Assembly (NCBI RefSeq): GCF_001514065.1
Contig: NZ_KQ948433.1
Location: 270,113 to 314,915, forward strand
Length of the DNA stretch: 44,803 nt
Source of the DNA: Streptomyces antibioticus
Lineage (GTDB): Bacteria > Actinomycetota > Actinomycetes > Streptomycetales > Streptomycetaceae
Direction: 5' to 3'
This document shows, in pieces, positions 13,068-17,505 of the stretch; position 1 is the first letter of the stretch, and each line of letters starts with the position of its first letter. Position numbers and translations under genes: made by a program. The notes under the pieces are model-generated. The model was not told where the DNA came from. It searched no databases and saw only the letters and a list, made by a program, of their open reading frames with translations.

Positions 13068-13640
13068 TCAGGCCGCGAACCCGACGTTGGTGACGTACTC
13101 GTACTGACCCCACTGAGAGCCCAGGTCCACGATCTGGTCGACCCAGGCGTCGTCCAAGGCCTGGAGGTTGTCCGCGGCCCAGGCCTCGACGATGCGGTCC
13201 CAGTGGCGGATGTTGAGGGTGCGGAACTCCACCACGCGCTGTCGGGGACGGGGGACCTGCGACTGGTTGAGGGGGTGGATCTCGACGCGGGTGCCGCGGC
13301 CCTCGCGGTTGAGGCGGGCCAGGAGGTAGCGGGCGGTGTTGTGGCGGCGGACAGTGCGGTAGGCCTGCTCGATGCGGTCGAGGTTCTTCTTGGACGGGCT
13401 GCGCTTGCCGTCCAGCCAGGCCTTCAGGGTGCGGTCTGTGACCGTCAGGCCCGCGGCGCGGGCGGCGGCGCGGGCGTGGTCGGTGCGGGTGAGGTAGTGC
13501 AGACGGGCCAGCAGACCACGCTTGGCGGTGATGGGGGTGGCGATGTACCCGGCAAGGGCGTCCAGGCGGCGGGCGACGGCCTCATGGCCCTTGATGCCAC
13601 GGGCGCCGTACAGGCCGAACTCGTTAGTGCGCTCCGGCAT
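13068..13640 (-). CDS. HTH-type DNA-binding protein of unknown function
   Basis: A 190-residue basic protein I cannot place in a named family with certainty. Its centre (about residues 65-95) reads as a helix-turn-helix: VTDRTLKAWLDGKRSPSKKNLDRIEQAYRTV split as two helices, reminiscent of the HTH in Streptomyces telomere terminal proteins (Tpg) and of phage/plasmid repressors. The C-terminal ~90 residues (VVEFRTLNIRHWDRIVEAW and following) are a separate, Trp-containing alpha/beta region. AGGAG lies five bases before the start. It is transcribed away from the 800-bp iteron region and the prim-pol gene, which suggests, as inference, an initiator, copy-control or repressor protein that binds the iterons. 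Confidence 0.65.
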   Translation of the reverse strand: MPERTNEFGLYGARGIKGHEAVARRLDALAGYIATPITAKRGLLARLHYLTRTDHARAAARAAGLTVTDRTLKAWLDGKRSPSKKNLDRIEQAYRTVRRHNTARYLLARLNREGRGTRVEIHPLNQSQVPRPRQRVVEFRTLNIRHWDRIVEAWAADNLQALDDAWVDQIVDLGSQWGQYEYVTNVGFAA

Positions 13641-14113
13641 TTCCTCTCCTAGCTCGCCCGGCGTCCTTGCTCGCCCGGGTTTCCCGCAGGAGATCAGTAT
13701 GGGCCAGGAGGGGAAGAAGGTGGCCGTACGGGGTAGCGGTGTTGCCGCTTGGCCCGAAACCGGGGCTGCGGGGCTTGGGTCGCTTCGGTCCGCTCTCAGT
13801 CGCTGCCAAGAAGGCCCAGTTCAGGGAGGCTTCGGGGGAAACAGCGACTGAAGCGATTGAAATCCGAAGATGTGCGAAGGAATCGGCGCGCGCACCGCTG
13901 CTTTTCGGACGGGCAGGCTCCGCCCGGCTTCAGGTCGGATGCAGAGTCGCTTGAGTCGCTTCGGTAGCTGGGCCCGCGAGCGGCGTGGGCTTCGGTCGCT
14001 GACCTCCGATCGGCCCGAGGAGTGGCCAGCGACTGAAGTCCAGCTACCGAAGCAGGTTCGGTAGCTACTCAGTCGCTGGGAAGAAAAGCCTGGTCAAGTG
14101 GGATGCGTCCCGG

Positions 14114-14238
14114 AAAACAGCGACTGAAGCGACTCAAGGTCCAGGTATATGGAGACATTGGCGTGTGCGTGCGTGCGTGTGCGTGTGCGCGTGTGCGCGT
14201 CATATATTCAGTCGCTCAGTCGCTTCAGTCGCTGTTTT
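14114..14238. repeat. Perfect 21-bp inverted repeat flanking an 83-bp core
   Basis: The left arm 14114-14134 (starting AAAACAGCGACTGAAGCGAC) and the right arm 14218-14238 are exact reverse complements, each containing two iterons. The 83-bp interval holds TATATG on one side, CATATATT on the other and the alternating purine-pyrimidine tract between. The symmetry suggests a bidirectional origin core or a large protein-bound loop. Confidence 0.75.
14161..14200 (+). repeat. Alternating purine-pyrimidine (GT/GC) tract
   Basis: Forty bases of uninterrupted purine-pyrimidine alternation made of GT and GC steps, beginning GCGTGTGCGTGCGTGCGTGT. Such runs can adopt left-handed Z-DNA under negative supercoiling. 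It sits in the middle of the 21-bp inverted repeat and is unlike anything else in the window. Confidence 0.85.
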
Positions 14239-14358
14239 GGTCTCTCCACCGCCTCTGACCTGCTGGTTTATCCGAGCGACTGAACAGCTACCGAAGCTGC
14301 CTCAGTCGCTGGGTCGCTCCTCGTCCAGTAGCTGGCCCCAGCTCGAATCGAATCTTTG

Positions 14359-14367
14359 TTTTCCACA
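14359..14367 (+). promoter_or_regulatory. DnaA-box-like site
   Basis: TTTTCCACA, one base from the Streptomyces DnaA box TTGTCCACA and from the E. coli TTATCCACA, 78 bp before the prim-pol start. Only one copy was seen, so this is suggestive only. Confidence 0.4.
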
Positions 14368-14444
14368 GGGGACTCTCCGCCCCCACTTGCTTCGCTAGGC
14401 TGTTCCGGTCGCTCAGTCGCTTCGGTCGCTGGTGGGGGGTGCGC

Positions 14445-15542
14445 ATGGCCTCTGAGCTGCACAACTGGCGTAGCTACTCATCTGTGTCCGCCCCGCTCAC
14501 GGGCGCGCTGATGACAGCTCGGTGGTGTGCCAGCCGCGGATGGCCCGTCCATCCACTGGCCCCGGGGCGCAAGACCCCCGCGGGCAACTGCGAGGACTGC
14601 CGACGCCCCGGCCATCACCACACGGGCTGCGGCTGCCCGGCCGCGGGCCGCTGGTGCCACGGATTCCACGCCGCCACCCTCGACTTCGCCCGCATCGAGC
14701 GCTGGTGGGGCGCCAACTCCGGCTTCGGCGTCGGCATCTCCTGCGGGCCCGCGAACCTGCTGGTCATCGACATCGACGCGCACGAACGCCAACTGCCGGG
14801 CCGGGACCGGCTCTTACCGGGCATCGGCATCGCCGACAGCATCGACCTGACCGGGCTCGCCAACGGCTTCCACACCATCGGCGTGCTGGCCGCCCTGCGC
14901 GGCTTTCCCAGCCCCGCCGACGACGAGACCACCCTGCGCGTGCGGACCCCCTCGGGCGGGCTGCACGTCTGGTACCGGGCCCACAGCGGGCACCGCTGGC
15001 AGTGCTCCACCGGCTCCGGCGTCCGCGCGCTGGCCTGGCAGGTCGACGTACGGGCGCACGGCGGGTACATCGTCGCCCCCGGCACCGTGACCGACGCGGG
15101 CGTCTACGAGCCTGTGGGCCCCGCCCGCGAACCCGCGCCGCTGCCCGACTGGCTGGCCCGCGAACTGGAGCGCACGGGCCATCTGCCGCCCGCGTACGTC
15201 CCCGCGCCCCGACCGGTCCCCCCGCGGGCCCGGCAGGCCGTCCTGGCCGCAGGGGGCGGCGAGGGCGCCGCAGGCAGGATCCTGGCCGCGCTGCTCGCGG
15301 AGGTGGCCGGCTGTGCCGCCGTGGCCGAAGGAGCCGCGTTCTCGGAGAAGTTGAACCGGGCCGCCTTCACCGCGGGCGGGCTGGTGGCCGGTGGGCAGCT
15401 CGCCGCGGACGAGGCCGAGCACGCCCTCAAGGAAGCCGCCGAACACGCCAGACCGGGCCAGGAACGCCGCTACACGGCCATCATCCGCAGCGGGCTCAAC
15501 GCCGGCCGCACCCGTCCACTGCTGCCGGGAGGTCGCGCATGA
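14445..15542 (+). CDS. Bifunctional DNA primase/polymerase (prim-pol)
   Basis: A 365-residue protein whose first ~200 residues are an archaeo-eukaryotic primase-polymerase domain as in phage, plasmid and AICE replication proteins. The metal-binding pair is D109-x-D111 (VIDIDAH), preceded by WWG..SGFGVGISCG and followed by a GGLHVWY strand. Residues 49-71 hold several Cys/His (CEDC, CGC, CH) that could bind zinc. The C-terminal ~120 residues are helical. It should make primers and extend them at the adjacent origin. Codon 124 is TTA (14814-14816), so translation depends on bldA tRNA. The stop overlaps the next start (ATGA). The ATG at 14445 follows GGTGGGGGG. Confidence 0.9.
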   Translation: MASELHNWRSYSSVSAPLTGALMTARWCASRGWPVHPLAPGRKTPAGNCEDCRRPGHHHTGCGCPAAGRWCHGFHAATLDFARIERWWGANSGFGVGISCGPANLLVIDIDAHERQLPGRDRLLPGIGIADSIDLTGLANGFHTIGVLAALRGFPSPADDETTLRVRTPSGGLHVWYRAHSGHRWQCSTGSGVRALAWQVDVRAHGGYIVAPGTVTDAGVYEPVGPAREPAPLPDWLARELERTGHLPPAYVPAPRPVPPRARQAVLAAGGGEGAAGRILAALLAEVAGCAAVAEGAAFSEKLNRAAFTAGGLVAGGQLAADEAEHALKEAAEHARPGQERRYTAIIRSGLNAGRTRPLLPGGRA

Positions 15543-17119
15543 CGCCCCGCCAGGAAGACACCCTCTTCGATGCGCAGACCTACGACGCTGAGACCTACGA
15601 CGCCGAGACGTACGAGGCCCAGGCGTACGACCCGAAGGCTTTCGACCCCCAGGCCGTCGCCGCACAGATCCTCGCCCAGCCCGTGCCCCGCTCCGGCTCC
15701 GGCTCCGAGGAGACGGCCCCGGCGTCGGGGGAGGCCACCTCCGACGGACTGCTGCCCGACACCCTCAGCGACCGCGGCAACGCCAAACTGTTCGTCAGGC
15801 TCTACTCCAACGACTACCGGCACGTCCCCGGCCTCGGCTGGTTCCGCTGGGACAGCACCCGCTGGCAGATGGACGAGGACGACACCGTGATGTGGGCGGC
15901 CGGTGACCTGGCCGAGTCCCTCGCGAGCCACGACCCGCGCGGCGTGTTCACGACCGTGGCGCTCCAGCAGCACCGCCGCCGGGCCCTGAGCACCAGCGGC
16001 ATGAACGCGATGCTCGCGCAGGCCAAGTCCGCCCCCGGCATGGTCCTCAACGCCGCCCGGCTGGACGCCGACCCGTACGCACTGTGCACCCCGGGCGGAG
16101 TCGTCGACCTGCGCACCGGGCTGGTCCGCGCCCCCGACCCCGACAAGGACTTCCACTCCCGCTCCACCACCGCGGCGCCCCAGGCGATGCCCACCCCGCG
16201 CTGGGACCGCTTCCTCACCGACACCTTCGGCGACGGTCCCGAAGGCGCCGAGATGATCGACTTCCTGCATCTGCTGCTGGGCTACTCCATCACCGGCGAC
16301 GTCGGCGGGCAGGTCATGCCGTTCCTGTTCGGCTCCGGCAAGAACGGCAAGTCGGTGCTCCTGGACGTCCTGATCAAGCTCATCGGCGACTACGCGGACG
16401 CCGCCCCGCCCGGCTTCCTGATGGCCCGCCCCTACGAGGGGCATCCCACCGACCTGGCCGAACTGCACGGCCGACGCGTCATCGTGTGCAGCGAGGTCAA
16501 GCCCGGCGACCGCTTCGACGAGGCCCGGGTCAAGCTCCTGACGGGCGGTGACCGCATCAAGGCCCGCCGGATGCGCCAGGACTTCTTCAGCTTCCAACCC
16601 ACCCACAAACTCTGGCTGCTGGGCAATCACCGGCCCGAAGTGGGCACCGGAGGCTTCGCGTTCTGGCGGCGCATGCGGCTGATCCCGTTCCAGCGGGTCG
16701 TCCCGGACGACCGCAAGATCGACAACCTGGCGGACATCCTCGTCACCGAGGAGGGCCCCGGCATCCTCAACTGGCTGATTCTGGGCGCCCGTCGCTACCT
16801 GGGCGGCCAGAAGGACCTCACGGGCCCCGAGCGGGTACGGATCGCCACGACGGCGTACGCGGAGACCGAGGACCACACCGGCCGCTTCCTGTCGGAGTCC
16901 TGCCGGCTGGAGCCCGCGCTGCGGGCCGAACAGACGCAGCTCTACGCGGTTTATAAGACTTGGTGCCAGAATGAGGGCGCCCCGGCGATCTCGTCCCGGG
17001 CCTTCGCGGCGCGGGTCCGAGAAGTGGTGGGACTGGTATCGCCCAAGGAGATGATCCTGTCCAACCAGCGCAAGTACTACCCGGGCATCGGACTTGTCGC
17101 CGACGAGGAGACAGCATGA
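15539..17119 (+). CDS. Phage/plasmid-type replicative helicase (P4/D5 family)
   Basis: A 526-residue superfamily 3 helicase of the phage P4 alpha / D5 primase C-terminal type. Residues ~80-220 match the D5_N region; the ATPase has Walker A GSGKNGKS at 265-272, an acidic B-type strand (GRRVIVCSEVKPGD) and the sensor LWLLGNHRPE. The C-terminal ~80 residues resemble a winged-helix tail. Residues 11-40 are six tandem pentads (DAQTY, DAETY, DAETY, EAQAY, DPKAF, DPQAV), an odd acidic-aromatic tail. It is translationally coupled to prim-pol, as expected for a two-subunit primase-helicase acting at an origin. No integrase or transfer gene accompanies it. Confidence 0.9.
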   Translation: MTPRQEDTLFDAQTYDAETYDAETYEAQAYDPKAFDPQAVAAQILAQPVPRSGSGSEETAPASGEATSDGLLPDTLSDRGNAKLFVRLYSNDYRHVPGLGWFRWDSTRWQMDEDDTVMWAAGDLAESLASHDPRGVFTTVALQQHRRRALSTSGMNAMLAQAKSAPGMVLNAARLDADPYALCTPGGVVDLRTGLVRAPDPDKDFHSRSTTAAPQAMPTPRWDRFLTDTFGDGPEGAEMIDFLHLLLGYSITGDVGGQVMPFLFGSGKNGKSVLLDVLIKLIGDYADAAPPGFLMARPYEGHPTDLAELHGRRVIVCSEVKPGDRFDEARVKLLTGGDRIKARRMRQDFFSFQPTHKLWLLGNHRPEVGTGGFAFWRRMRLIPFQRVVPDDRKIDNLADILVTEEGPGILNWLILGARRYLGGQKDLTGPERVRIATTAYAETEDHTGRFLSESCRLEPALRAEQTQLYAVYKTWCQNEGAPAISSRAFAARVREVVGLVSPKEMILSNQRKYYPGIGLVADEETA

Positions 17120-17505
17120 GCGCCCTCATCGCCGAGGACGAGCTCGTCCACGAGGACGAACTCGTCTGGCTCGAGGACATCAGCACGCTCGACTACGTAC
17201 GTCAGAGCCTTGACCGGCTGCCGACGCGCCGCGGCAAGCCCGCCTACCACCGCGACGGACGCATGGTCGGCTACGCGGTGCTGGGTCCCCGCGCCAAGCC
17301 CTCCCGCTCCTCGGGCACGTTCCGGCGCCGGGTGTTCTGGCTGCTGCCGCACGACCGGGACACCGCGCCCGAGGGCCTGTACACGACCGGCGCCCCCGCC
17401 GAGGCGATAGACCCGCGCACCCTGGCGCCGGGCAGCAAGGGCTGCAAGACCGAGCGTTCTGAGGGCGGCCCCCTGTCGTCGGACGTGGCCCAGCTGCTCC
17501 CCTGA
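17116..17505 (+). CDS. Small protein of unknown function, coupled to the helicase
   Basis: A 129-residue protein whose ATG overlaps the helicase stop (ATGA), so it is part of the same transcript. The N terminus is acidic (DELVHEDELVWLEDIS); the middle is basic (RRGKPAYHRDGRMVGYAVLGPRAK, FRRRVFWLLPHDRD). No signal peptide or membrane segment. I recognise no domain. The position suggests an accessory to the replication module, for example a helicase regulator or DNA-binding helper (inference). Confidence 0.7.
   Translation: MSALIAEDELVHEDELVWLEDISTLDYVRQSLDRLPTRRGKPAYHRDGRMVGYAVLGPRAKPSRSSGTFRRRVFWLLPHDRDTAPEGLYTTGAPAEAIDPRTLAPGSKGCKTERSEGGPLSSDVAQLLP

Follow-up and report, generated by a model that had tools for sequence, protein, structure and literature searches.

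A candidate terminal protein for Sg2247-type telomeres beside the core replicon of a giant linear plasmid from Streptomyces antibioticus

What is a compact replication module doing in the genome of Streptomyces antibioticus, and what is the role of the DNA-binding gene that diverges from it? The module lies at positions 13,068 to 17,505 of the stretch analyzed here (hereafter the window), 44,803 nucleotides that correspond to G000:C12:270113-314915, where G000 is the source genome (10.1 Mb in 29 contigs) and C12 its contig NZ_KQ948433.1 (424,694 bp). A preliminary description had proposed a minimal satellite or domesticated replicon firing inside the chromosome, with a helix-turn-helix (HTH) protein as its DNA-binding part. 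Judging from sequence comparisons, we consider it very probable that the locus holds the core replicon of a linear plasmid and that the 190-aa HTH protein is the terminal protein (TP) of Sg2247-type telomeres. The HTH gene was assigned this role because its homologues read outward near replicon ends, share operons and co-occur with a homologue of the telomere protein Tap, are linked to the Sg2247 motif, complement the terminal protein Tpg across genomes, and have a Tpg-like predicted order of structural elements. The features of the locus are the following.

13068..13640, minus strand: candidate TP gene (HTH gene) for a protein of 190 aa with an XRE-like HTH, a long helix and a C-terminal beta/helix domain
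13641..14438, no strand: replication-origin region, with iteron cores between the HTH gene and the prim-pol gene
14439..15542, plus strand: prim-pol (bifunctional DNA primase/polymerase), GTG start; PF09250, E = 6.7e-36
15539..17119, plus strand: P4-family/D5 replicative helicase; D5_N, E = 6.6e-36, and NCBIfam 'phage/plasmid primase, P4 family', E = 2.4e-84
17116..17505, plus strand: DUF6009 protein, the third replicon gene; PF19472, E = 6.3e-63

The gene content given in the preliminary description held: profile matches placed the prim-pol, the P4/D5 helicase (superfamily 3 type) and the coupled small gene, the HTH gene diverges from them, and both the prim-pol/helicase and the helicase/DUF6009 junctions are 4-bp overlaps (ATGA). 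The iteron origin was also borne out. The 798-bp intergenic region contains 14 copies of the core AGTCGCT/AGCGACT, the outermost two at 13798 and 14415 and some of them forming inverted repeats, against a mean of 0.15 and a maximum of 2 in 500 dinucleotide shuffles; a GT-rich stretch lies at ~14160-14200, and 11 further origins carried 7 to 15 cores apiece. DNA similar to this replicon was found in 369 plasmid records, five of which cover at least 80% of the locus. The set of genes, which had been thought without a named counterpart, is not unique, since the annotation of the four best records (85-90% identity) gives these four genes as well, and all three whose order was inspected keep that order. 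With iterons next to replication genes and conservation on linear plasmids, the locus has the appearance of a linear-plasmid replicon.

Several related modules were noted along the way. At G000:C12:245686-247846, ~40 kb from the window replicon, another P4-type helicase (63% identity) is again followed by DUF6009, and an extra prim-pol/helicase module is also present in plasmid NZ_CP109028 (adjoining parAB) and at two further loci (L047 and L050); it may be common for such a plasmid to have two replicon modules. A literature search on DUF6009 gave no paper on the family. In NZ_CP108250 (46462-57821, L230), a record labelled circular, the same iteron replicon has a MarR gene and an alpha/beta hydrolase gene in the place of the TP gene, a possible natural linear/circular contrast as judged from this locus of the record.

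The molecule that carries the locus was examined through four blocks of C12, all of which are homologous to linear plasmids. Specifically, 72% of the 12.5 kb upstream of the locus matched NZ_CP108294, 82% of the 24.5 kb downstream matched NZ_CP108303, and linear plasmids were also matched by two 20-kb pieces, at 100-120 kb and 330-350 kb. All four blocks have matches in NZ_CP108294 (338 kb, linear), and NZ_CP108303 and NZ_CP109028 are homologous as well. The order is partly kept: in NZ_CP108294 the upstream block is found at another place and on the opposite strand, and in NZ_CP108303 it is adjacent. Read inward, the right end of C12 starts GCGCGGTCTGCTCCGCAGACACGACGCG, of which 45 nt are identical to the left end of pSCAT, a plasmid listed among the Sg2247-type replicons (PMC8743542), in a study that also gives the S. 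albidoflavus J1074 chromosome ends of this type. The last 180 nt, folded as a single strand, form seven hairpins with GNA loops (-78.7 kcal/mol, z = -9.6), so that this end is of the Sg2247 type in both sequence and fold, and related plasmids have ends of similar type (NZ_CP109028 and, partly, NZ_CP108294). Because C12 is homologous to linear plasmids and ends in a telomere on its right, we read the locus, on these comparisons, as the core replicon of a giant linear plasmid and not as a chromosomal satellite. Another, different Sg2247-type end, 75% identical to that of C12 over ~190 nt, is found on contig C22 (3,011 bp) of the same genome.

For the HTH protein itself, Pfam and NCBIfam gave weak HTH matches, one of them to the Tpg model (E = 0.016), and the annotations of homologues that we saw call them transcriptional regulator, HTH protein or hypothetical, and none of them terminal protein. 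Among 295 Streptomyces genomes, drawn evenly, a family match (E <= 1e-3) was present in 121. In the source genome, which was searched for this family and for Tpg (Tpc and GtpA lay outside these searches), the C12 gene was the only member found and no Tpg scored above the profile cut-off. The family is concentrated at replicon ends. Counted by hand over the genomes that consist of one contig, match strongly and have a position listed for the gene, a copy lies within 40 kb of the end in 14 of 20 and within 0.5 Mb in 19 of 20 (one further genome, G080, was left out as its position was not listed); in G207 the gene stops 540 bp short of the chromosome end. Outward reading was seen for 34 of the 36 matches in the chromosome list, whose distances were set aside because these matches had partly been picked for looking terminal. 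A plasmid search with a member of the 45% subfamily (L192) as query returned 160 records; among the 60 matches listed, 42 read outward, and so did all 33 of those located within 30 kb of an end. Two documented Sg2247 plasmids encode members of the family, pSCAT one that is 77% identical to the window protein and pSGZL one that is 67% identical to the L192 subfamily. A 79.5% homologue was also observed on the 106-kb plasmid of strain RLB1-9 (NZ_CP041652, pRLB1-9.2, position 78131); an RLB1-9 plasmid, written pRLB1-9.1, is described as having no Tap or Tpg homologue (PMC7205883), and no telomere motif was seen by eye at the left end of NZ_CP041652.

The second line of evidence is a recurrent neighbor. 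We examined 99 loci, namely the best 80 of 218 (named loci) and 19 of 20 terminal loci (the twentieth stops short of the gene). At 59 of them (44 of the named and 15 of the terminal loci) the next gene upstream, in the same orientation and no more than 400 bp away, encodes a Tap homologue, so that the candidate TP gene follows a Tap-type gene as in a TP/telomere-associated protein (TAP) operon. These partners have a median length of 532 aa, and 4 of the 59 are short (104-329 aa). Five of six tested matched the NCBIfam telomere_Tap model with E-values of 8e-20 to 6e-22, under its equivalog cut-off. In profile comparison (hhalign) with canonical Tap, 215 C-terminal columns aligned with P = 4.9e-15 (reversed control 0.22), and the N-terminal HTH aligned as well (P = 5.4e-5). 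Across the 295 genomes, 103 had both candidate TP and Tap homologue, 8 the TP only, 2 the partner only and 182 neither (p = 6e-67), with cut-offs of E <= 1e-40 for the partner and E <= ~1e-25 for the TP that were set after seeing the lists and that score 10 genomes with weaker TP matches as absent. Weak partner matches (E <= 1e-3) occurred in 282 of 295 genomes, which would be expected of a search that also reaches canonical Tap and HTH domains.

At the window the pair is split. The Tap homologue of the source genome is an open gene of 507 aa on another contig (G000:C6:116472-117995), preceded by a 101-aa XRE gene and followed by no TP gene. This contig (718 kb) is probably chromosomal, since by eye it begins in an apparent cytochrome oxidase gene. 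With the TP gene on C12 and its partner on C6, the two proteins should therefore act in trans. The best-matching TP and Tap homologue are also far apart or on separate contigs in G207, G208, G015, G103, and G122. The small XRE protein is separate before the Tap homologue here (G000:C6:117992-118297) or seemingly fused to it elsewhere; a further example is L186:1194-2546.

The distribution of the family also mirrors that of Tpg. At a strong-match threshold of ~1e-25, which we set ourselves (212 genomes; the tool's own cut-off gives 213), 54 genomes had both Tpg and the family, 158 Tpg only, 67 the family only and 16 neither (p = 2.8e-18). In other words, the family was present in 67 of the 83 genomes without strong Tpg versus 54 of the 212 with it. 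An Sg2247-like end motif was detected in 29 genomes, of which 28 carry the family versus 93 of the remaining 266 (p = 3.5e-11); the one motif genome without it, G178, carries a strong Tpg, and the motif match there forms no palindrome. An archetypal end motif was likewise found in 29 genomes, 28 with strong Tpg and 2 with the HTH family. The absence of a motif means little because draft genomes often lack their ends. The two archetypal-motif genomes with the new family, G221 and G256, also have the Tap partner; G221 has no Tpg match and may mix telomere classes.

Telomere and protein also vary together. Distances between telomeres (first 24 nt) and between proteins were correlated across 28 genomes (Mantel r = 0.52, none of 10,000 permutations as high), taking one gene copy per genome, sometimes from a contig other than that of the telomere. 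An earlier run on 30 nt, in which the G201 telomere was wrong, gave r = 0.40 (8 of 5000). The set comprised 25 of the 29 motif genomes plus G025, G065, and G179; left out were G023 and G259 (gene position not listed), G027 (gene in two pieces) and G178 (no gene). By eye, and often from partial palindromes, the loop of the terminal palindrome was GC-closed in all 19 cases with at least 50% protein identity to the window protein, and CC/GG-closed in all 6 with less than 50%. Since the sequences are related, this co-variation speaks for joint inheritance and is by itself no proof of recognition.

The window protein was also compared with Tpg by predicted structure. In AlphaFold2 models (predicted local distance difference test of 90 for the window protein and 83, lower near the priming loop, for Tpg), both are predicted to begin with a helix and the three helices of an N-terminal HTH, followed by a long helix, two strands joined by a loop, two more helices and a last strand; the window protein has one extra N-terminal helix, modeled with low confidence. 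The HTH region (residues 24-96) matched the Tpg profile in hhalign (P = 2.2e-4), and a separate Tpg alignment gave P = 0.001 (reversed control 0.44). The priming residue of Tpg is Thr114 (PMC3572947), which in the model falls in the loop between two strands. The equivalent loop of the window protein, matched by topology alone, holds Ser127, and among 112 sequences this position is Ser in 108, Thr in 3 and Asp in 1. Ser127, whose loop joins strands one and two of the modeled C-terminal domain, is a plausible priming residue; S175, Y180, and Y94 are conserved in the family as well. Sequence searches of the PDB with the window protein and with the Tap homologue returned HTH-domain or chance matches only.

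A mechanism that would join these parts can be sketched. Replication would begin at the iterons, where the helicase would open the origin and the prim-pol would prime. Once forks reached both telomeres, 3' overhangs would remain and fold into hairpins with GNA loops. The Tap homologue (G000:C6:116472-117995) would bind the folded overhang and add the first nucleotides to a Ser or Thr of the TP, by which the end would be patched and the TP would stay on the 5' end. Here, the plasmid-borne TP and the Tap homologue from the other, probably chromosomal contig would work in trans, and, with the TP gene found on the plasmid only, the linearity of other replicons with this telomere would depend on the plasmid. 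Deoxynucleotidylation of TPs by Tap and Tac has been reported in vitro (PMC4513846). A more specific version, which we put forward tentatively and rate at rather less than even, is that the pair is the missing Sg2247 end-patching machine and the Tap homologue a template-directed polymerase with a family-B-like palm. By eye, Tap homologues (L118:6402-7997, A3) contain motifs that resemble those of polymerases (D-x-N, K...G and, toward the C-terminus, a conserved D), and similar positions are visible in canonical Tap (L271, L272). Again by eye, motif A would be D301-x-N303 (LDINGAYLSA), motif B K427..Y430.K432..S435-T436.G438 and motif C T483-D484-E485. The 2015 paper reports Tap and Tac as being without a polymerase motif (PMC4513846).

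A number of observations weigh against the TP assignment. The window protein reaches 15.2 bits with the Tpg model (NF047541, cut-off 90), its likeness to Tpg past the HTH consists of the predicted element order, with no sequence match in the C-terminal domain, and PDB fold searches with the window protein and Tpg gave no match at E <= 0.001. One family member (L191) has Asp at position 127. A Tap-like neighbor within 400 bp is missing at the window and at 40 of the 99 loci, and the one tested partner without a Tap match is that of L187. The 54 Tpg-positive genomes that also have the family and the 16 with neither fit complementation poorly, and the genome-wide tests treat genomes as independent (phylogeny uncorrected) with thresholds chosen post hoc. 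Finally, no hairpin array was seen by eye at the left end of C12, from which we take the plasmid to be incomplete.

Among other explanations, the one that survives best, improbable as we find it, is that the HTH protein binds the iterons to repress the adjacent prim-pol replicon or to control its copy number, and has no telomere role. The gene is indeed divergent from the replicon with the iterons in between, its HTH is XRE-like, and database records call it a transcriptional regulator. However, this arrangement beside the replicon recurs at 7 of the 80 named loci only, the replicon also occurs without the HTH gene alongside (e.g., in NZ_CP108250, judged from this locus), and the family is located near ends and with the Tap homologue. 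As the replicon neighborhood is facultative, we downgraded this reading in favor of a TP candidate. Slightly less probable still is that the family is a telomere-linked passenger spread by end exchange that has no part in end-patch priming. Exchange of Streptomyces ends by recombination has been reported (PMC7205883), and any subtelomeric gene would then correlate with telomere type. Yet here ~140 kb separate the gene from the single telomere that its contig has, its Tap homologue sits on a different contig, the pair is also on separate contigs in G103 and G122, the co-occurrence with the Tap homologue holds at any distance, and the family complements Tpg.

The satellite or domesticated replicon of the preliminary description, whose origin, prim-pol and helicase stand, keeps hardly any probability as a chromosomal element, its compact gene set and the lack of an integrase among eight scanned proteins being outweighed by linear-plasmid homology on both sides and the telomere at the contig end. 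An actinomycete integrative and conjugative element (AICE) was rejected on the same homology and telomere and because neither integrase nor FtsK was found among the eight window proteins scanned (four of them neighbors; the rest of the contig and att sites lay outside the scan), which also agrees with the integrase-free gene content described earlier. Simple membership in Tpg was rejected on its model score, far under the cut-off. Elsewhere in the window, the region at 17520-42000 is conserved on several linear plasmids; with its gamma-butyrolactone regulators, metK/metH-type genes and aromatase/cyclase annotations, we read it as a plasmid-borne biosynthetic cluster.

In a 2021 survey, the proteins that patch Sg2247-type ends were described as elusive and undiscovered end-patching systems as likely (PMC8743542). 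Among the titles and abstract openings covered by our literature search, in which subscription journals are largely absent, none reported a TP for these telomeres. Naming a candidate TP and a Tap-type partner, found together in 103 of the 295 Streptomyces species sampled (about a third), makes the question testable. If the assignment is true, it would explain the linear chromosomes of most Tpg-less species, the family being present in 67 of the 83 such genomes. It would also correct a widespread annotation as transcriptional regulator and help to build and maintain linear vectors. The split of TP and partner between plasmid and another contig suggests plasmid-dependent linearity. Should the polymerase reading also be true, Streptomyces TP/TAP systems would be minimal relatives of protein-primed polymerases, and the linearity of the whole chromosome here would rest on a plasmid-borne TP.

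Among known systems, the candidate pair resembles Tpg/Tap in size (190 versus ~185 aa), N-terminal HTH and nearly the same predicted element order, in a gene that often follows a Tap homologue and is often subtelomeric and outward, and in a hairpin telomere. It differs in that the window protein misses the Tpg model (E = 0.016), the telomere sequence is another one, and the genes are here on separate contigs. Tpc/Tac of SCP1 is likewise a non-archetypal TP/TAP pair for a non-archetypal telomere; Tpc, of 259 aa and reported without Tpg homology (PMC3572947), is set apart from our candidate by description only. GtpA/GtpB of Streptomyces griseus IFO 13350 (SGR_RS00470/SGR_RS00475) is also a two-gene, non-archetypal TP system (PMC7205883), and its comparison with the HTH family, made by description, limits any claim of novelty; that study used a 50% identity cut-off and thus cannot decide how GtpA relates to the family. 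On the replication side, the locus shares an iteron origin and a helicase with the iteron replicons of Streptomyces linear plasmids. AICEs carry an integrase, an FtsK-like transfer gene and att sites, and the window replicon shares the prim-pol with those of their replicons that use one, without an integrase among the scanned window proteins. What sets it apart from both is its combination of a prim-pol, a P4 helicase and DUF6009.

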